Shown here in pieces: positions 25,041 through 36,294 of a DNA stretch of 64,000 nucleotides (positions are counted from its first letter, which is position 1; each line of letters opens with the position of its first letter). Under the pieces are notes generated by a model, which saw only the letters and a program-made list of their open reading frames with translations, had not been told where the DNA came from and ran no database searches. Source of the DNA: Metabacillus endolithicus. Its GTDB lineage: Bacteria > Bacillota > Bacilli > Bacillales > Bacillaceae. Made by a program: the position numbers and the translations under genes. The stretch lies in assembly GCF_023078335.1 (NCBI RefSeq), contig NZ_CP095550.1, positions 2,338,001 to 2,402,000 on the forward strand. Reading direction: 5' to 3'.

Positions 25041-26331
25041 TTACGAATTTTGAAGTTGTTCGATTTCTTTTTCTGTTAATTTTTCACGCCAAATTGTTGC
25101 ACCAAGACCTGTTAGTTTTTCCTCTAACTGACTGTACCCACGATCGATATGCTCTAAACCTGTAATCTCAGTTATTCCGTCTGCCATTAAGCCTGCGCAG
25201 ACCAAGGCAAGCCCCTGCGCGCAAGTCACTTGCTTTTACTTTTGCTCCTTGAAGCTTCGTAGGACCAGAGACGATTGCTGATCTGCCTTCAACCTTAATT
25301 GATGCACCCATTCTTCTTAGTTCATCAATATGCTTAAAGCGTGCAGAATAGATTGTATCTGTTACAACACTAGTTCCGGTTGCTCTTGTTAAAAAAGAAG
25401 TAAACGGCTGCTGCAGATCTGTTGGGAAGCCAGGATAGACAAGCGTTTTAATATCAACAGCTTTTAGTTCCTTTTGTCCACCAACGATTAAAATCTGGTC
25501 ATTGCTTGTTTCGATATGCATGCCCATTTCTCTTAGCTTCGCAATTAAGGATTCAAGATGTAATGGAATAACATTGTCGATCATAACCTCTTTACCCATT
25601 GCTGCACCAATGATCATATATGTTCCCGCTTCAATGCGGTCAGGAATAATGGAATGACGGCAGCCATGGAGCTTTTCAACACCATCGATGCGGATTACAT
25701 CTGTACCAGCACCTTTAATTTTCGCACCCATACTTGTTAGTAATGTCGCAACATCAATGATTTCCGGTTCTTTTGCTGCATTTTCAATGATTGTTCTGCC
25801 TTTAGCCAAAACAGCTGCTAGCATAATGTTAATCGTTGCACCAACACTAACAACATCTAAGTAAATACGAGCACCTTTTAATTCATCCGCACGAAGATAA
25901 ATCGCACCTTGTTCATTTGTAATTTGAGCACCTAGTGCCTCAAACCCCTTAATATGCTGATCAATCGGGCGTGGACCTAAGTGACAGCCGCCTGGAAGGC
26001 CGATTACAGCCTTTTTGAAACGACCAAGCATCGCTCCCATTAAATAATAAGAAGCTCTAAGCTTTTTCACTTTTCCATTTGGTAAAGGCATCGAAATCAT
26101 TGAAGAAGGATCAACAACCATCTCATTGTTTTTCAACTCTACCTTACCACCGATTTCTTCTAATAAATCACCTAATATATTCACATCTGAAATGTTTGGT
26201 AAACCCTCAATTGTAACAGGAGATTCAGCGAGAATCGTCGCTGGGATTAGTGCAACCGCACTATTTTTTGCTCCACTAATTGATACTGTACCTTTTAGTA
26301 AATCTCCACCGGCAACTTTTAATTTTTCCAT
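25041..26331 (-). CDS. murAB: UDP-N-acetylglucosamine 1-carboxyvinyltransferase (MurAB/MurZ type), frameshifted
   Basis: Transfers enolpyruvate from PEP to UDP-GlcNAc, the first committed step of peptidoglycan synthesis. The fosfomycin-target Cys is in [16 protein letters not shown] (near residue 116), and substrate residues in [18 protein letters not shown] are present. The frame shifts near 25209-25212, where one extra base turns the expected RAGAALVCAG into [10 protein letters not shown]. Removing it gives 429 residues, the length of B. subtilis MurAB, whose position beside rho and fbaA it shares. I start at [10 protein letters not shown], behind GAAGGGAG. Sequence error is likelier than a true lesion, unless a second MurA covers the function. 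Confidence 0.88.
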
Positions 26332-26801
26332 GTTAGTCTCCCTTCTATGAAGTTGACTTTCCGGAAAGAACATTAAGGGTGAGCTAGGCTCTGTTTTAAG
26401 CATAGCTATGTATAAAATCACACGACCATCATGTTTTCCGAATTAAAAACATCTAGTCAACATAATTAAAAAAATTAACAACCATGTTAGACGACTATTA
26501 CCTTTTATAAGTGTTTATCTATTTTATTGCCTTATATTCCTTAGTCAATACATGACAATCTTACATATGTAAAACTTATTCGCCTGAAAAAAAGCGATCC
26601 TTTTTACAGACCCTCTTATTATTAAACCATCTATTGTGTTGGACAACAATGATTTACTGTAAAAGAATACGTTTTTCTATGAGTTTTTGAGAGTTTAGTG
26701 AAAAATGATGTTTTTTACTAGGAGAATCTTGATGCAACGAAAGATTTTGTAGGTTATGATTTGCGGAAAAAGAATGTGATTCTCAAGATGACAAATGAAA
26801 A

Positions 26802-28019: not shown

Positions 28020-28394
28020 TTAATTCGCTTTAAGTGGTAAATACTTTTTTACTGCTTCACGAATTTCATCGATGTCAAATGGTTTTGCAAAGTGTGTGAG
28101 TGCACCTAAGTCTTTTGCTTCTTGGATCATATCAAGTTCGCCGTAAGCTGTCATGATGATGACACGGATGTCTTGGTCGATTACTTTCATTCTTTTCAAA
28201 ATTTCGATTCCATCCATTCCCGGGATTTTCATATCAAGTAATACAAGGTCTGGAGAGTGGTTTTCCACGATTTCAAGTGCTTGGAAACCGTTTGCCGCTT
28301 GGAAAGTTTGATAGCCTTCTTTTTGAAATACTTCATTTAGCAAAATACGAATTCCGTATTGATCATCAACAATTAAGATTTTTTCTTTTAACAT
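28020..28394 (-). CDS. spo0F: Sporulation phosphorelay response regulator Spo0F
   Basis: A 124-residue stand-alone receiver domain that carries phosphate from the Kin histidine kinases to Spo0B. The acidic pocket is in [10 protein letters not shown], the phosphorylated Asp in [13 protein letters not shown] (about residue 54), the Thr switch in VIIMTAYGE and the Lys in THFAKPFD. There is no output domain, as expected. Upstream elements resembling a sigma H promoter and a Spo0A box are listed separately. Confidence 0.95.
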
Positions 28395-29269: not shown

Positions 29270-29309
29270 AAAAAAAGAATGAACTCTTAAAACGAGTTCA
29301 TTCTTTTTT
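29270..29309. terminator. Bidirectional terminator between ywjG and the IclR gene
   Basis: AAAAAGAATGAACTC pairs with GAGTTCATTCTTTTT around a 7-nt loop, flanked by A and T runs. Its right arm overlaps the end of the IclR gene. Confidence 0.8.
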
Positions 29310-30062
29310 ATTATCGTACCCTAATTTAACTGAAATTTTTTCAGCTACTTCTTTCACTTTATCAATAATAACCGGAATGGTTTCTGCTTGGAAACGAACA
29401 TTTGGACCTGCCACACTTATACCTGCAACCACTTCTCTTTTATGATTAAAAATAGGCGCAGCAATTGATGTAGTGTAGTCTTCTAACTCTGAGTTACTAA
29501 TTGTATAACCATTCCTCTGTGTTTCCTTTAATACTTTACGGAGCTTTTCTTGGTCAGTAATCGTTCCTGAACCAATTGCTCTTAGTTCGACATCTTGTAA
29601 ATATTGCTCCAGTTCATCTTCAGGTAAAAAAGCAAGAAGAACTCTTGAGCATGCTCCAGCATAAAGAGGGGATTTCCTGCCGATTGCTGTATACAACCTA
29701 ACTGGCTGGGTTGTATCAACCTTTTCAATATACATTGCTTCATGTTGGTCCCGAATTGTCAGGTTTACAGCTTCTCCCATTTCATCTCGAAGGAATTTCA
29801 TATAAGGCAAGGCAATTTGACGGATGTCTAGCCTGTCCGCCACCAATTGACCGTATTGTAAAAATAATAAGCCAAGAGAATATTTACCATCTTCATCTTT
29901 ATCAAGAAACCCCATATCCTCGAGTGAACCAAGCATACGATGAACAGAGGTTTTTGGCATGCCGGAAACTTTGATCATTTCATTAAAAGATAGTTTAGGA
30001 TGCGTTAAAAAAAGGGTAAGGAGGTCCATCGATTTAATCACAGTTTTATTCTTATTTTGCAA
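29298..30062 (-). CDS. kipR: IclR family transcriptional regulator (KipR-like)
   Basis: A 254-residue regulator with an N-terminal winged helix (SMDLLTLFLTHPKLSFNEMI, SGMPKTSVHRMLGSLEDMGF) and a C-terminal IclR effector domain (YIEKVDTTQPVRLYTAIGRK, LYAGACSRVLLAFLP, AGISVAGPNVRF). It sits 104 bp after the accC-like gene at the end of the kip operon. B. subtilis kipR, also IclR family, ends the kipI-kipA operon. It probably represses the locus, with an unknown ligand. Confidence 0.85.
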   Translation of the reverse strand: MQNKNKTVIKSMDLLTLFLTHPKLSFNEMIKVSGMPKTSVHRMLGSLEDMGFLDKDEDGKYSLGLLFLQYGQLVADRLDIRQIALPYMKFLRDEMGEAVNLTIRDQHEAMYIEKVDTTQPVRLYTAIGRKSPLYAGACSRVLLAFLPEDELEQYLQDVELRAIGSGTITDQEKLRKVLKETQRNGYTISNSELEDYTTSIAAPIFNHKREVVAGISVAGPNVRFQAETIPVIIDKVKEVAEKISVKLGYDNKKE

Positions 30063-30166: not shown

Positions 30167-31519
30167 CTATTCTTTTATCGAAATATGATAGGTTTCTAGA
30201 AATTTCGTATTAAACTCACCCGAAACAAACGCGTCATGCTCTAATAGCTCAAGGTGAAACGGAATCGTTGTTTTAATCCCAGTAATGATGAATTCATCAA
30301 GAGCTCTTTTCATTCTTTGCAGCGCATCTTCACGATCTTTACCCCAAACGATTAATTTGGCGACCATTGAATCATAAAAAGGAGAAACAGTGTAGCCCGG
30401 ATAAACAGCACTATCTACCCTAACGCCAAAGCCACCTGGTGGAAGATATCCTTCAACAAGACCAGGAGATGGCATAAAGTTTTTCACAGGGTTTTCAGCA
30501 TTGATCCTACATTCGATTGCCCAACCGTTAATTTTAACTTCCTCTTGTTTAAAAGAAAGTTCATATCCAGCAGCTACTGCTATTTGCTCCTTAATAAGAT
30601 CAATTCCTGTGACAAGCTCTGTTACAGGATGCTCGACTTGGATACGCGTGTTCATTTCCATAAAATAAAAATGACCATGTTTATCTAGTAAAAACTCTAC
30701 CGTTCCTGCACCATGATACTTTACAGATTGAGCTGCTTTTACAGCCGCTTCACCCATTTTGTTACGCAGTACTTCATCAAGGGCTGGTGACGGAGCCTCT
30801 TCGATCAGTTTTTGGTGGCGGCGTTGAATGGAGCAATCTCTTTCACCAAGATGAACAACGTTTCCAAATCGGTCGGCAATGATTTGAATCTCGATATGAC
30901 GCGGTTCTTCTAAATATTTTTCTAAATAAACACCCGGATTTCCGAAGGCTGTTTCTGCTTCTTGCTGTGCTTGACGAATTGCTTTTTTCAATTCTTCTGC
31001 ACCGTACGCGACTCTCATTCCTTTACCGCCACCACCTGCTGTAGCTTTCACGATCACTGGATAACCAATTTCAGTCGCAACTTGCAATGCCTGTTCCTCA
31101 TCTTTTATCAACCCATCTGTTCCCGGTACAGTCGGCACTCCTGCTTTACTCATTGTTTCACGGGCTACGTCTTTTGTTCCCATTTTTTGAATCGCCTCTG
31201 AGTCAGGGCCAATAAATGTGATATGGCATTTTTCGCATGCTTCAGCAAAATCTGCATTTTCGGCAAGAAAGCCATAGCCAGGATGTATTGCATCCGCTCC
31301 TGTCATTGTTGCAGCACTCAAAATATTCGGTATATGTAAATAACTTTCCTTTGAAGCTGTTTTCCCAATACAATAAGCTTCATCAGCTAATTTTACGTGA
31401 AGTGCTTCTCGATCGGCCTCAGAAAAAACAGCAACTGTTTTAATCCCCAATTCTTTACATGCTCTTATAACTCGAACAGCAATTTCTCCGCGATTAGCAA
31501 TTAACACTTTCTCAAACAT
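30167..31519 (-). CDS. accC: Biotin carboxylase (AccC-like) of the pxp/kip locus
   Basis: A 450-residue biotin carboxylase with an N-terminal domain ([20 protein letters not shown]), ATP-grasp lid and glycine loop ([13 protein letters not shown]), and catalytic [14 protein letters not shown]. It carboxylates biotin on a carrier protein with ATP and bicarbonate. I start at MFEKV, where AAGGAGG is properly spaced. It lies 24 bp after accB and downstream of kipI-kipA. It could serve acetyl-CoA carboxylase, but its place here suggests a dedicated partner for the KipI/KipA proteins. Confidence 0.88.
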
Positions 31520-31543
31520 ATGATGTTTCCTCCTTACCAAAAG

Positions 31544-32015
31544 TTAAGATTTTCTAATTGCAAACAAAGGCTGGCCAAATTCAATAAGCTGACCTTCTTC
31601 TACTAAAATCTCAACAATTTCTCCATTAACTTCAGCTTCAATTTCATTGAAAAGCTTCATGGCTTCTAGTATACAAACAACCGTGTTACTTTGAACTTTT
31701 GAGCCAACTTGAACAAATGGATCTGCATCTGGATTTGAACGGGAATAAAATGTACCAACCATTGGAGATAACACCTTATGTAGATCTTCTTTCTTCTCTT
31801 CTACCTTTTCTTGTTTCTCCACAACAGGAGGCTCTACTACAACCGGTGCTGCTGGTGGTTGTGGGCTTGGACATCATTTCTACAACAGGTGAACCTTCTA
31901 CTTCAGAAACTTTTTCAATCACAACCTTTGTTCCCTCGTGCTCTAACCTGAATTTTTGAATGGATGAAGAATCAACCGCTTTAATCATTTCTTTAATGTC
32001 ATTTATGTTTAACAT
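31544..32015 (-). CDS. accB: Biotin carboxyl carrier protein (AccB-like), frameshifted
   Basis: A biotin carrier with an N-terminal AccB region ([20 protein letters not shown]), a Pro/Ala-rich linker and the biotinyl domain. [17 protein letters not shown] contains the Lys that is biotinylated. The frame is broken near 31868-31874 at the start of the linker. Removing one base joins ...VVEMM to [18 protein letters not shown] and yields 156 residues, normal for AccB. The ribosome binding site is AAGGAG. It follows kipA by 14 bp and precedes accC by 24 bp. Confidence 0.85.
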
Positions 32016-32029
32016 GAATTGTTGCTCCT

Positions 32030-33037
32030 TTATTGTTTTAATTTATAGTTAATACTCACCGCTAATTGCTTTAAGCTTTTTTCTCTTTCTAAATACAATC
32101 TTTCAGCTTTTTCTAATGTTATTTCAGTAAAAGAAAGTGACTGACCTGGCATCACCTGTGCAACAACAGGTAGGTCAACCGTTGCAACTTGACCGATTTT
32201 CGGATATCCCCCTGTTGTTTGCCGGTCAGCAAGCAGGATAATTGGATTTCCATCAGGCGGGATTTGAATGGTTCCATGAGCCACAGCTTCTGAAAGCATT
32301 TCCAATTTTTCTTCTAATTCAATAGATGGTCCTGATAATCGGTACCCCATTCGATCAGATTGTGGTGACACTCTAAAAGATTGGGTGAAAAACTGCTGCT
32401 TGCTATTGGCTGTAAATTGTTCGAACTGTGCTCCTGGTAAAACGCGAATATTCGGATTTTTTGTAAGAGGTAGAAACTCATTCCAACGAACAGACCAGTT
32501 AGTTGTTAGGAACGCTCCTTTATATTGCTTGTTTTTTAGCTTTTCAATCTGTGAGAAAGCTCCTTCTGATATCGGATTTGTTTCTAAAACATCTCCCTCT
32601 TGAATCGCTCTTCCTTGATATCCACCTATTTCAGCTCTTAAGTAGGTGCTTTTGCTCTTCATCATTCTCTGAACAGCAAAGCCACCAGCTACTGCCAGGT
32701 AAGTTCTGCAGCCAGACTTTTGTGCTCCAAATTGAAGTTTACTTCCTTTTTTCACAAAAACAGGACGCCATAATGGAACAGAAACCCCTTCAATCGTAGG
32801 AGATAAATCTCCTCCTGTAATTGCGATGAGCATATCTTTTTCAACTAACAACGTTGGTCCCATTAAAGTGATTTCTAATGCAGCTTCTTCTTTTGAATTG
32901 CCAACTAATAAATTTGCGATTCTGAGAGAATATGAATCCATTGCACCGCTAACAATGACTCCGTACTTTTGGTATCCATACCTTCCTAGATCCTGGATCG
33001 TCGTAAGCAGTCCTGAACGTAGAGTGGTTATACTCAT
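32030..33037 (-). CDS. pxpC: 5-oxoprolinase subunit C (KipA/PxpC, AHS2 domain)
   Basis: A 335-residue AHS2-domain protein (biotin-dependent carboxylase-like domain 2). SITTLRSGLLTTIQDLGRYGYQKYGV is the family N-terminus, SPQSDRMGYRLSGPSI the conserved core and IILLADRQTTGGYPKIGQVA the C-terminal signature. With PxpA and PxpB it forms ATP-dependent 5-oxoprolinase; in B. subtilis KipA also opposes the KinA inhibitor KipI. The ATG overlaps the kipI stop by 4 nt (ATGA), behind GGAGGG, so the two are translationally coupled. Confidence 0.92.
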   Translation of the reverse strand: MSITTLRSGLLTTIQDLGRYGYQKYGVIVSGAMDSYSLRIANLLVGNSKEEAALEITLMGPTLLVEKDMLIAITGGDLSPTIEGVSVPLWRPVFVKKGSKLQFGAQKSGCRTYLAVAGGFAVQRMMKSKSTYLRAEIGGYQGRAIQEGDVLETNPISEGAFSQIEKLKNKQYKGAFLTTNWSVRWNEFLPLTKNPNIRVLPGAQFEQFTANSKQQFFTQSFRVSPQSDRMGYRLSGPSIELEEKLEMLSEAVAHGTIQIPPDGNPIILLADRQTTGGYPKIGQVATVDLPVVAQVMPGQSLSFTEITLEKAERLYLEREKSLKQLAVSINYKLKQ

Positions 33038-33798
33038 TTGTTTCCCTCCTTCCATTCCAAAAAGTCATTGTAGGAAATAGGATAGAACTTCACTATGTCT
33101 CCTGCCTGAAGTAGACTTGGTGGTTCTTTTTCTGATAAAAAAAGACTAAGAGGAGTTTGACCAATCAGCTGCCAGCCGCCTGGTGTGGAAATCGGATAAA
33201 CACCGGTTTGTTTCCCGGCAATTCCAACAGAACCGGCTGGGATGCTAGTTCGCGGTGTCGAACGTCTTGGTGTTGCAATTTTCTCTGACATCCCCCCTAA
33301 AAACGGAAAACCAGGGGCAAACCCGAGCATATAAACGAGATATTCCCCACCTGAATGAAGGCTTATCACTTCATCTGTTGTTAAGTTGTTTTGTTTAGCG
33401 ACAAATTCCAGATCCGGACCGCATTCACCGCCATAGCAAACGGGAATTTCAACGGTCCGATGTGTTTCTATTTCTTCATCTTTCAGGTTTGTTAACATAT
33501 CCTCGATGATGGAACGGACATTTTTGTAAGGAGAGACCATTTTCCCTACTTTATAAGCGTGGCTCTTTTCTTCTACTAAAAGTGGATCATAAAAGACAGT
33601 CAAACTGGTATATGATGGAATACATTCAATGAATCCCTTAAAGCTGTTTTGTGTTAAATAATTAGACAACATTTGTACCTTACGATGTACGGAATACTCG
33701 ATTTCATTGCCATACCGAACCACAATAGCAGCATCTCCGGCAGGTTCGATGATGAAGTTCTCTTGATTTATATGATTAGTCTTTGTCAATCCTCTCAC
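33034..33798 (-). CDS. pxpB: 5-oxoprolinase subunit B (KipI/PxpB, AHS1 domain)
   Basis: A 254-residue AHS1-domain protein. FIIEPAGDAAIVVRYGN, VEIPVCYGGECGPDLEFVA and LGFAPGFPFLGGMSEKIATPRR form the family signature. It partners PxpC in ATP-dependent 5-oxoproline cleavage and, in B. subtilis, inhibits the sporulation kinase KinA. The start is uncertain: GTG at 33798 or TTG at 33789, each with an imperfectly spaced purine stretch. It is the second gene of its operon if the 47-codon gene upstream is expressed. Confidence 0.9.
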   Translation of the reverse strand: MRGLTKTNHINQENFIIEPAGDAAIVVRYGNEIEYSVHRKVQMLSNYLTQNSFKGFIECIPSYTSLTVFYDPLLVEEKSHAYKVGKMVSPYKNVRSIIEDMLTNLKDEEIETHRTVEIPVCYGGECGPDLEFVAKQNNLTTDEVISLHSGGEYLVYMLGFAPGFPFLGGMSEKIATPRRSTPRTSIPAGSVGIAGKQTGVYPISTPGGWQLIGQTPLSLFLSEKEPPSLLQAGDIVKFYPISYNDFLEWKEGNK

Positions 33799-33853
33799 AT
33801 CCTCTTTGCATCTTTTAATAAGAAGATTTCCATTTGGGGATTTTCCTTAATGA

Positions 33854-33997
33854 CTATTGGAAATCATTATAGTAAACAATTTGGGAAAGAAATTTACTTC
33901 CTTTTATTTTATCATAAGCTTCTTTTGCTTCTTTTTCGTTATTGAACTCAAACATTTTCGGATGATTGTGCTCTGAGTAGACAGTGATAACCCACAT
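33854..33997 (-). CDS. 47-residue small protein at the head of the kip operon
   Basis: A short frame reads MWVITVYSEHNHPKMFEFNN, then EKEAKEAYDKIKGSKFLSQI and a short aromatic end (VYYNDFQ). AGGAGG lies 8 nt before the ATG. The composition (beta-rich start, charged helix, beta-rich end) looks like a small folded domain, and I recall similar short Bacillus hypothetical proteins. It precedes kipI by 55 bp on the same strand and follows the divergent TnrA/GlnR-like box, so it is probably the first gene of the kip transcript. Function unknown. Confidence 0.7.
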   Translation of the reverse strand: MWVITVYSEHNHPKMFEFNNEKEAKEAYDKIKGSKFLSQIVYYNDFQ

Positions 33998-34140
33998 TAG
34001 AAAGCCTCCTAAGCTATTTTTATTATAATCTATTTATCTTATTCCGTTAAACGGAACTAAAATTCCTTATATCGGACTTAGAGGCTATTATAATTTTAGT
34101 TTTTATAAAATACAACAAAAAACTTGAACAAAATGATGTT

Positions 34141-34157
34141 TGTTAGAATAGTTAACA
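34141..34157. promoter_or_regulatory. TnrA/GlnR-like box in the divergent pxp promoter region
   Basis: TGTTAGAATAGTTAACA fits TGTNAN7TNACA with all fixed bases. A TATAGT -10-like element at 34187-34192 would place the box centre about 50 bp upstream of a plus-strand start, the usual spacing for TnrA activation. B. subtilis ycsF-kip genes are TnrA targets. Confidence 0.65.
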
Positions 34158-34281
34158 AAATAGTTTAAAAATTTAAACAGATACATTATAGTCAATCCAT
34201 GTTACAATAATTGAAACTTTAGTTCCTAAATTCGGGAACAAAGCTATACTTGTACTCATTTTTTTAAAAGGGGAATCTTGT

Positions 34282-35040
34282 TTGTATCAAATTGATTTGA
34301 ATTGTGATTTGGGAGAAAGTTTTGGGGCTTATAAAATTGGGATGGATGAAGAAGTTCTTCAATTTATTACATCAGCAAATGTTGCTTGTGGATTTCATGC
34401 CGGAGATCCTTCTGTCATGAGAAAAACCGTGCAACTTGCTCTTAAGAATAACGTTAAAATTGGAGCACACCCTGGACTACCTGATTTAGCAGGCTTTGGT
34501 CGACGTAACATGAACATTTCTTCGCAGGAAGCCTATGATCTCGTTGTTTACCAAATAGGAGCTCTTTCCGGCTTTTTAAAGGCAGAAGGAGAAAAAATGC
34601 AGCATGTTAAACCACACGGTGCTTTGTATAATATGGCGGCAAAAAACAGAGAATTATCGGAAGCGATTGCCGAGGCTGTTTACAAAGTAGATCCACAGCT
34701 GATTCTTTTCGGTCTTGCCGGAAGTGAATTAGTAAAGGCTGGTGAAAAAATCGGACTTAATACAGCACATGAAGTCTTTTCTGACCGAACTTATCAGCAC
34801 GACGGCTCATTAACACCACGAACTCTACCCCATGCACTTATACATAGCTACGAAGATTCTGTTTCACAGGTTATTCGTATGATCAAGGAAGGAAAAGTTC
34901 GTTCAACGCAAGGCGTTGATGTACCTGTATTAGCTCAAACAGTTTGTATTCATGGAGATGGTCCTGAGGCTCTTGTATTCGCTAAACAGCTAAGAGAGTC
35001 AATGCAATCTGAAGGCATAGAAGTAAAAGCGTTTAGTTAG
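34282..35040 (+). CDS. pxpA: 5-oxoprolinase subunit A (LamB/YcsF family, PxpA)
   Basis: A 252-residue LamB/YcsF protein, the third subunit of ATP-dependent 5-oxoprolinase, which recycles 5-oxoproline to glutamate. [51 protein letters not shown] and [11 protein letters not shown] are the family signatures. Its start is a TTG, with AAAGGGG about 8 nt upstream. It is divergent from kipI-kipA, unlike a single pxpABC operon, and is followed after 11 bp by the NRAMP-like gene. Confidence 0.93.
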
Positions 35041-35051
35041 GAGGAAAATTT

Positions 35052-36294
35052 ATGGAGCCACTTAATGTTTCACCAAAAAAGGAAGATAAAAGCAAATCAT
35101 CTTTACCAAAAATGAATTGGTCACTCTTAATGGGAGCTGCCTTTTTAATGGCAACCTCAGCAATTGGACCTGGTTTCTTAACACAAACAACTGTGTTTAC
35201 TCAAACATTAGCAGCCAGTTTTGGTTTTGTTATTTTAGTTTCTATTATTTTAGATATTTTTGCTCAAACAAATATATGGCGAATTATTGCTGTTTCTGAA
35301 AGAAGAGGACAAGATATCGCCAACATGGTTTTCCCGGGACTCGGGTATATCCTTTCTTTCCTGATCGTCCTTGGAGGTCTTGCCTTTAATATTGGGAATA
35401 TTGCGGGTGCCGGAACTCGGTTTAAACGCAATAACCGGTGTATCGCCGGAGGTTGGTGCGGTGATTGGTGCAGTGATTGCAATCTTTATTTTCGTTGTAA
35501 AAGAAGCAGGAAAAGCAATGGATCGCTTCACACAAATTGCAGGATTTGTCATGATTGGATTAATGATCTATGTTGCGATTACAACAGCTCCTCCTGTTGG
35601 TGAAGCGATTATCAGATCTGTAGCACCCTCGCAAATTGATGTTTTAGCGATTGTAACGCTAGTTGGTGGTACAGTTGGTGGATATATTACCTTTGCTGGT
35701 GGCCATCGTCTTTTAGAAGCTGGTATAAAAGGAAAAGCCGCGATTCCAGAGGTAACAAGAAGCTCTGTTGTCGGGATTTTATTTACATCTGTTATGCGTA
35801 TTGCCCTTTTCTTAGCTGTACTGGGAGTTGTTTCAAAAGGGTTAGGATCACAAATTGATCCAACGAACCCACCTGCATCTGTGTTTCAGCTTGCAGCTGG
35901 AGATGTTGGTTATAAAATTTTCGGTATTATTATGTTTTCTGCTGCTATTACATCAGTTGTTGGTGCAGCGTATACTTCTGTTTCGTTTATTCGTACATTC
36001 AGTGATAAATTAGAGAGAAATAATAAGGTCATTACAATTGGTTTTATTGTGGTGTCAACTCTTGCTTTTGTGTTGATTGGTAAGCCTGTTAAAGTGTTAG
36101 TGTTGGTTGGAGCTTTAAACGGACTTATTCTGCCATTAGCGCTTGGAACCTTGCTTGTTGCGGCTTATAAGAAGAGTATTGTTGGGGATTATAAGCATCC
36201 GTTATGGTTAACGATTTCGGGAGCGCTTGTAGTGATTGTGATGGCATTTTTGGGTGCATATACGATTATTAAGTCGCTTCCTCAGTTGTTTTGA
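35052..36294 (+). CDS. ycsG: NRAMP-related transporter (YcsG-like), frameshifted
   Basis: A polytopic membrane protein of the divergent NRAMP branch that accompanies pxpA (YcsG in B. subtilis). TM1 reads SAIGPGFLTQTTVF, so the DPGN metal-binding motif of true NRAMP metal carriers is absent. The frame shifts at 35414-35415, where one extra A turns AGAGLGLNAITG into AGAGTRFKRNN. Removing it gives 413 residues with about 11 membrane segments. AGGAGG precedes the ATG. A role in 5-oxoproline or amino acid uptake is inference from context. Confidence 0.82.

Follow-up and report, generated by a model that had tools for sequence, protein, structure and literature searches.

A stretch of 64,000 nucleotides of the Metabacillus endolithicus chromosome (NZ_CP095550.1, positions 2,338,001 to 2,402,000; hereafter the window) contains a pxp locus in which the genes for KipI, KipA, a biotin carboxyl carrier protein (BCCP; AccB) and a biotin carboxylase (BC; AccC) follow one another beside pxpA. 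We propose, with a probability of roughly 0.55, that AccC, AccB and the KipI-KipA complex (KipIA) form a putative split, urea-carboxylase-like biotin carboxylase that acts on 5-oxoproline, the ring of which would be opened by PxpA. In the predicted scheme, AccC would place a carboxyl group on the biotin of AccB at the expense of ATP and bicarbonate, KipIA would serve as the carboxyltransferase (CT) that passes the carboxyl group to 5-oxoproline, most likely to its lactam nitrogen, and PxpA would open the activated ring, after which the carbamate would decompose to glutamate and CO2. The direct basis of the proposal consists of gene content and order, the BC active-site positions, the biotin motif, the CT-family fold of KipA, a separate housekeeping-type accBC pair in the same genome and the recurrence of the linkage in other genomes, from which we infer the biotin dependence of KipIA, the substrate, the site of carboxylation and the role of PxpA.

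The genes kipI, kipA, accB and accC and a regulator gene occupy the minus strand between 33798 and 29298, and pxpA and a transporter gene diverge from them on the plus strand from 34282:
33034..33798, minus strand: kipI/pxpB, CT subdomains C and D (PF02682, 1.2e-75; TIGR00370 PxpB, 267.5 bits, cut-off 145.55)
32030..33037, minus strand: kipA/pxpC, CT subdomains A and B
31544..32015, minus strand: accB, BCCP, frame broken (TIGR00531, 131.1 bits for a piece of 92 amino acids, cut-off 115.2)
30167..31519, minus strand: accC, BC, extra copy (TIGR00514, 789.7 bits, cut-off 626.5)
34282..35040, plus strand: pxpA (LamB/YcsF), divergent (PF03746, 2.5e-104; NF003814, 377.7 bits, cut-off 226)
35052..36294, plus strand: NRAMP-family transporter gene, two overlapping frames, frame broken (Nramp, 1.5e-14)
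29298..30062, minus strand: kipR-like IclR-family regulator gene, last in the minus-strand run (Pfam IclR_C, 6.1e-56)
The kipA start is the ATG at 33037, which overlaps kipI by 4 nt in an ATGA junction; in the close relatives L133 and L137 a stop codon lies immediately 5' of the kipA ATG. Gaps of 14 nt (kipA end at 32030, accB ATG at 32015) and 24 nt (accB stop ending at 31544, accC ATG at 31519) follow. The contiguity of the four genes beside pxpA and all three spacings agree with a sequence-only reading of this DNA that preceded the analysis; its description of four separate genes holds for the intact kipI, kipA and accC, whereas accB is split over two frames in the window.

In accB, the frame that starts at the ATG stops early and the biotin domain resumes in another frame (31822-31544), and the NRAMP gene is divided between two frames in the same manner. 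Intact copies are present in L133 and L137 of the same genus (accB, 156 amino acids; NRAMP, 413 amino acids), and alignment with L133, the nearer relative, leaves one single-base gap in each gene. By eye, murA (window 25168-26421) also appears shortened or frame-split, and a further BC gene of the genome, probably of the pyruvate-carboxylase type (G000:C1:4504217-4507629), has its BC part in a frame of 806 amino acids and its biotin part in another. Because further genes of this genome look split and the relatives' copies are intact, assembly indel errors are the likeliest cause of the breaks in accB and NRAMP; a genuine accB mutation is possible.

The Pfam domains found at the locus are CT_C_D, CT_A_B, Biotin_lipoyl, Biotin_carb_N/C, LamB_YcsF, IclR and Nramp. 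The domain set of urea carboxylase (TIGR02712), i.e., BC, BCCP, CT_A_B and CT_C_D, is thus complete and spread over four genes, and no single protein reaches the TIGR02712 cut-off of 1303.85 bits (KipA, 192.1 bits; AccC, 566.2 bits). PxpA and PxpB pass NF003814 and TIGR00370 at the scores listed above, while PxpA narrowly misses the equivalog model NF003813 (382.5 vs. 392). KipA passes the broader model TIGR00724 (326.6, cut-off 230.2), and its fold resembles that of E. coli YbgK and of the CT part of Kluyveromyces lactis urea amidolyase. AccC and AccB pass the family models of the BC and BCCP of acetyl-CoA carboxylase; no AccD or AccA homologue is found at the window locus, and accBC is not the sole copy of the genome. 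The window AccC is identical to E. coli AccC at all 11 aligned positions that we take to be BC active-site residues. The biotin motif EAMKL is found in the window accB, and the MK motif is kept in all 31 carriers checked (28 AMK and 3 VMK).

The genome, 5.30 Mb in size, encodes five BC domains. A second accB-accC pair, of the housekeeping type, lies at C1:899-901 kb, with genes that we read as nusB, folD and xseA to one side and what we read as sporulation genes to the opposite side, presumably the textbook Bacillus setting; classical CT genes are found elsewhere, including what we take to be accD and accA near C1:1.298 Mb. AccC from the pxp locus and the housekeeping-type AccC are 71% identical. 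The pxp-linked accBC is an extra pair and not the housekeeping one; a genome with no other accBC pair, which would have refuted the sequence-only reading, is not what is seen. The same genome also has a fused urea-carboxylase-type protein of 1,210 amino acids, encoded upstream of an amidase-like gene. In the stretch L026:4064-10135, the fused gene is preceded by two mutually similar small genes whose products appear to resemble urea-carboxylase-associated proteins, so that the fused enzyme may be a guanidine carboxylase.

Adjacency of accBC to kipIA was counted over 236 pooled loci, a count by locus and not a measure of prevalence, with some genomes reached twice (e.g., L198 and L249); 80 of these loci were the best-scoring among the matches listed, and 4 duplicate rows and 7 rows without accB or accC were set aside; at loci taken with 1.5-kb flanks, genes lying farther off can have been missed. 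Both accB and accC lie within 3.5 kb of kipA at 26 of the 236 loci, with accB alone at 3 more. The gene order is kipI-kipA-accB-accC at 25 of the 26 linked loci, three of which have an extra stretch between accB and accC that holds two permease genes in both cases read (L234 and L267). By a hand estimate, five BC domains in 5.3 Mb would place one that close to a given kipA at about 0.7% of loci, and chance is a poor explanation of the linkage. Besides the window, two of the best 30 class-level loci are linked (L195 and L198). Among the 80 named loci that scored best among the matches listed, 15 have accC and three Bacillota loci (L231, L235 and L262) have accB without accC. Five of 30 loci from 26 chosen genomes are linked (L337, L338, L343, L349 and L352); they belong without exception to families f96 and f121, which are called staph-like here, a label inferred from operon order among other things; two longer staph-like stretches (L378 and L379) read kipI-kipA-accB-accC-pxpA-NRAMP. 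Within six f96 genomes, G447 (kipA 28% identical) has no accBC in its 1.5-kb flanks, and the linkage in G422 comes from coordinates only. In each of six staph-like genomes chosen for checking there are three BC matches, one of the housekeeping type, one of the pyruvate-carboxylase type and the kipIA-adjacent one, and one or more BC matches besides the linked one are present for all 21 locus handles with linked accC, which stand for 20 genomes, as one genome was reached by two handles.

The linkage extends beyond Bacillota. Of 743 plasmid records with a match, 40 were listed and the first 18 of these were inspected. Ten contain accC and a carrier gene (L426, L428, L431, L434, L436, L437, L440, L441, L442 and L443), L427 has carrier genes without accC, L433 is of the fused urea-carboxylase type and six have neither. 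The linked records include Rhizobiaceae, Variovorax and one haloarchaeon (L434), in which accC is on the opposite strand. Annotated Rhizobiaceae records read carrier, accC, carrier-like, pxpB, pxpC and pxpA, with 4-nt overlaps from accC through pxpC, while the order in L436 and L440 is pxpA, accB, accC, kipI and kipA. Co-occurrence of accBC with kipIA, for which the sequence-only reading suggested a survey across Firmicutes, recurs in Bacillota, in Proteobacteria and in one haloarchaeon. Counting one Agrobacterium record with the three Bacillota loci, a carrier without accC is found near kipIA in four cases, which are hard to explain unless kipIA uses the carrier. The Agrobacterium record, an A. 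vitis plasmid (L427), has two carrier genes near pxpBCA and no accC match there. The first rhizobial carrier has the AMK motif in six of six cases, and the second carrier-like protein, before pxpB, lacks it in five of five (L426:3863-4297, L428:3923-4315, L431:3881-4315, L442:3890-4315 and L427:3848-4291); the latter may be a structural stand-in.

In an AccC tree of 60 rows, the 26 linked rows fall into two clades, with two label changes forced. One, of Bacillales, Paenibacillus and Negativicutes, holds 20 linked rows together with L305, which is unlinked (support 95/97); the other is staph-like and holds 6 linked rows (support 100/98). When Proteobacteria and an archaeon were added (63 rows, 33 linked), the linked rows formed four supported clades and one long single row, Natronococcus. 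Of the two added clades, one joins Rhizobiaceae and Variovorax and adjoins E. coli AccC, while the other is a further rhizobial pair. This tree omits L433, whose AccC and KipA run on as in fused urea carboxylase, two near-duplicates and a pyruvate carboxylase row; for L426 and L431, whose AccC matches are each divided into two pieces that overlap, the larger piece alone was used. The 63-row tree requires 5 label changes, compared with 21.3 in shuffles, of which strong branches force only 3; a label change may be gain or loss alike, and the deep branching among the linked clades is not settled by the tree. Because linked AccC fall into several clades, a single origin of linked accBC across lineages is unlikely on these phylogenies. 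The linked AccC of Negativicutes groups with the linked AccC of Bacilli and apart from the second AccC of the same genome in the 60-row tree, as if kipIA and accBC of Negativicutes had moved together. Identity to the window AccC is 47-51% for the linked AccC of staph-like genomes and 60-66% for the housekeeping-type AccC of the same genomes; the divergence of the linked ones is therefore old. Six loci of Pelosinus, Sporomusa and Lucifera (L232, L234, L240, L242, L245 and L267) have two kipI-kipA pairs and one pxpA each; the pair that is 52-60% identical to that of the window has accBC, and the 37-41% identical pair has no biotin genes directly after it.

The partner genes of the linked loci were compared over 30 loci, a set that leaves out L195, L198 and three short staph-like loci. 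Homologues of AccD, AccA, PccB and the genome's own 317-amino-acid, allophanate-hydrolase-like amidase piece are found at none of the 30 linked loci, none of the four carrier-only loci and not at the window locus. The presence of pxpA, D-glutamate cyclase and DUF969/DUF979 at linked loci makes a context that fits 5-oxoproline. Of the 30 linked loci, 10 have D-glutamate cyclase and 5 have DUF969/DUF979; among the 62 named loci without linkage, the counts are 20 and 7, respectively. Since the gene setting is alike with and without accBC, linked and unlinked KipIA probably act on the same substrate. The DUF969/DUF979 permease pair was seen in pxp clusters at L230:3596-5264, L234:7608-9261 and L267:7557-9217, in the last two between accB and accC.

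The predicted enzyme shares its four parts, BC, carrier, CT_A_B and CT_C_D, with urea and guanidine carboxylases, in which BC, CT and BCCP are on one chain. It differs from them in that the parts are encoded by four genes with pxpA alongside, no allophanate hydrolase is found at the loci examined and the position of K1605, the lysine that serves as general base in urea carboxylase of K. lactis (PMC5770610, available text), is occupied by arginine. With the PxpABC 5-oxoprolinase (ybgJKL of E. coli; kipI-kipA-ycsF of B. subtilis) it shares homologues of PxpA, PxpB and PxpC, but unlike the E. coli operon, which has no accB or accC beside it, the locus described here has both in the same run. A six-gene operon of Staphylococcus aureus that includes pxpB, pxpC, pxpA, accB and accC has been described as a regulator target, its accBC being ascribed to fatty acid synthesis in the text available (PMC11315280); it has the same gene set as the window, and staph-like linked AccC form their own clade. 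In PDB entry 9yx5 (released 2025-11-26), the sequences of chains V and W match those of KipA and KipI; its title, which names a long chain acyl-CoA carboxylase complex of Mycobacterium smegmatis with MSMEG_0435-MSMEG_0436 bound, and its chain names place these homologues in one solved assembly with the BC-carrier subunit AccA3. AccA3 is listed in other carboxylase entries too. In the available parts of two further papers, an extra BCCP/BC copy and pxpBC are mentioned as peculiar features of Lactiplantibacillus pentosus, each for itself (PMC12427679), and split CT homologues are noted with no functional data in a 2011 BC study (PMC3199775). Within the limited library searched, no paper was found that describes a biotin-dependent 5-oxoprolinase or joins accBC and pxpBC as one enzyme. 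The S. aureus pxpBCA-accBC operon is already in print; the reading of accBC and KipIA as one enzyme goes beyond these papers, and we consider its mechanism moderately likely.

A number of results weigh against the proposed enzyme. The linkage is rare in evenly drawn samples: of 60 genomes of the family with split kipA, four have adjoining accBC (the window, L092, L133 and L137), and in the phylum sample, in which kipA is present in 46 of 149 genomes, including two from the window's own family, none of the 47 loci from the other 44 genomes has adjoining accC, two matches of 24% identity (L164 and L165) not being counted as BC. The expectation that the linkage would be common is not borne out by these counts. 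A KipA tree of 114 of the 221 distinct rows (all 28 linked or carrier-only rows, 80 random unlinked ones and a few chosen neighbours) has 14 label changes, 11 of them forced, which indicates that accBC near kipA is often lost; it also refutes the idea that linked KipA form one clade. A set of 11 distinct genomes has kipIA but lacks a linked accC (G477 and G515 being the same genome, and L262 having only accB). In 8 of them the best AccC sits closest to an unlinked row, be it of the housekeeping type or another, and in 3 its placement is unclear; at least eight therefore have no dedicated copy elsewhere for kipIA. At the level of residues, the K1605 position is arginine in 72 of 72 aligned KipI, linked and unlinked alike, and neither KipI nor KipA has a position at which linked and unlinked Bacilli differ by the criterion applied (a residue in at least 85% of the 24 sequences that are linked or carrier-only and in at most 40% of the 26 unlinked ones). 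Either both kinds therefore use biotin, or the biotin genes serve something that many relatives manage without. KipA, moreover, stays below the cut-off of the PxpC equivalog NF045499 (281.6 vs. 500), D-glutamate cyclase and DUF969/DUF979 are about as frequent without accBC as with it, and the window locus has neither. Finally, ATP hydrolysis is reported for co-purified PxpBC in the available text of PMC8453981. L305 AccC, which lies inside a linked clade, belongs by our reading to a propionyl-CoA-carboxylase-type operon (L376:6445-9852); BCs of the linked lineage can therefore serve other CTs, and partners have changed.

The frequent loss of accBC and the lack of distinguishing KipIA residues also favour the view that KipI-KipA-PxpA is an ordinary biotin-free, ATP-dependent 5-oxoprolinase next to a co-regulated accBC with a separate job, e.g., feeding another CT, and phosphorylation of 5-oxoproline by PxpB and PxpC is assumed in the available text of PMC13274462. 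We regard this explanation as unlikely, though deserving serious consideration, as AccD, AccA and PccB homologues are absent from all 30 linked loci, the recurrent linkage involves AccC of four supported clades and, in some loci, only a carrier, and KipA has a CT-family fold, its homologues with those of KipI being placed on a carboxylase complex by the title of 9yx5. Two readings fit the counter-evidence: PxpBC may always use biotin, borrowing the housekeeping carrier where needed, or biotin may be an add-on of some lineages. The sequence-only reading had contrasted the locus with E. coli PxpABC as an enzyme working with no biotin enzyme; no accBC indeed lies beside the E. coli operon, but E. 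coli has accBC elsewhere that PxpBC could borrow, and the residues of KipIA give no support for such a division in Bacilli. That all prokaryotic PxpBC are CTs using carboxybiotin from a dedicated or housekeeping carrier, with 5-oxoproline opened as an N-carboxy lactam and the printed phosphorylation scheme wrong, is a doubtful but arguable extension.

The linked accBC could instead be a second copy that raises the dosage of acetyl-CoA carboxylase for fatty acid synthesis, the role given to these genes in the S. aureus operon study, and both proteins do score above the AccC and AccB family cut-offs. We consider this quite improbable given the housekeeping-type set in the genome, the absence of accD and accA homologues from the 30 linked loci and the old divergence of the staph-like linked AccC. 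The least probable of the explanations weighed here is a split carboxylase for urea or guanidine that does not act on 5-oxoproline. In its favour, the four parts of urea carboxylase are complete, and KipA and KipI match the CT part of that enzyme; the genome, however, already has the fused 1,210-amino-acid protein followed by an amidase-like gene, linked loci have pxpA alongside instead of allophanate hydrolase homologues, and the catalytic lysine of urea carboxylase is not conserved.

With regard to the remaining neighbours, IclR regulator homologues are found near pxp genes in many relatives, and an NRAMP gene together with an IclR regulator near kipIA is common to the window and to loci of the B. 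subtilis group (L275 and L291). A gene read by eye as encoding a Spo0F-like response regulator (window 28020-28394) lies about 5 kb from kipI, and the B. subtilis KipI homologue carries the PDB name kinase A inhibitor.

In the available text of PMC13274462, the manner in which PxpBC use ATP on 5-oxoproline is stated as an assumption. If the dedicated BC genes described here serve PxpBC, the enzyme would rank with the urea and guanidine carboxylases among the N-carboxylating biotin enzymes, a large family annotated as 5-oxoprolinase would gain a testable mechanism, and second accBC copies that are currently assigned to fatty acid synthesis, such as that of the S. aureus operon, would have to be re-assigned.

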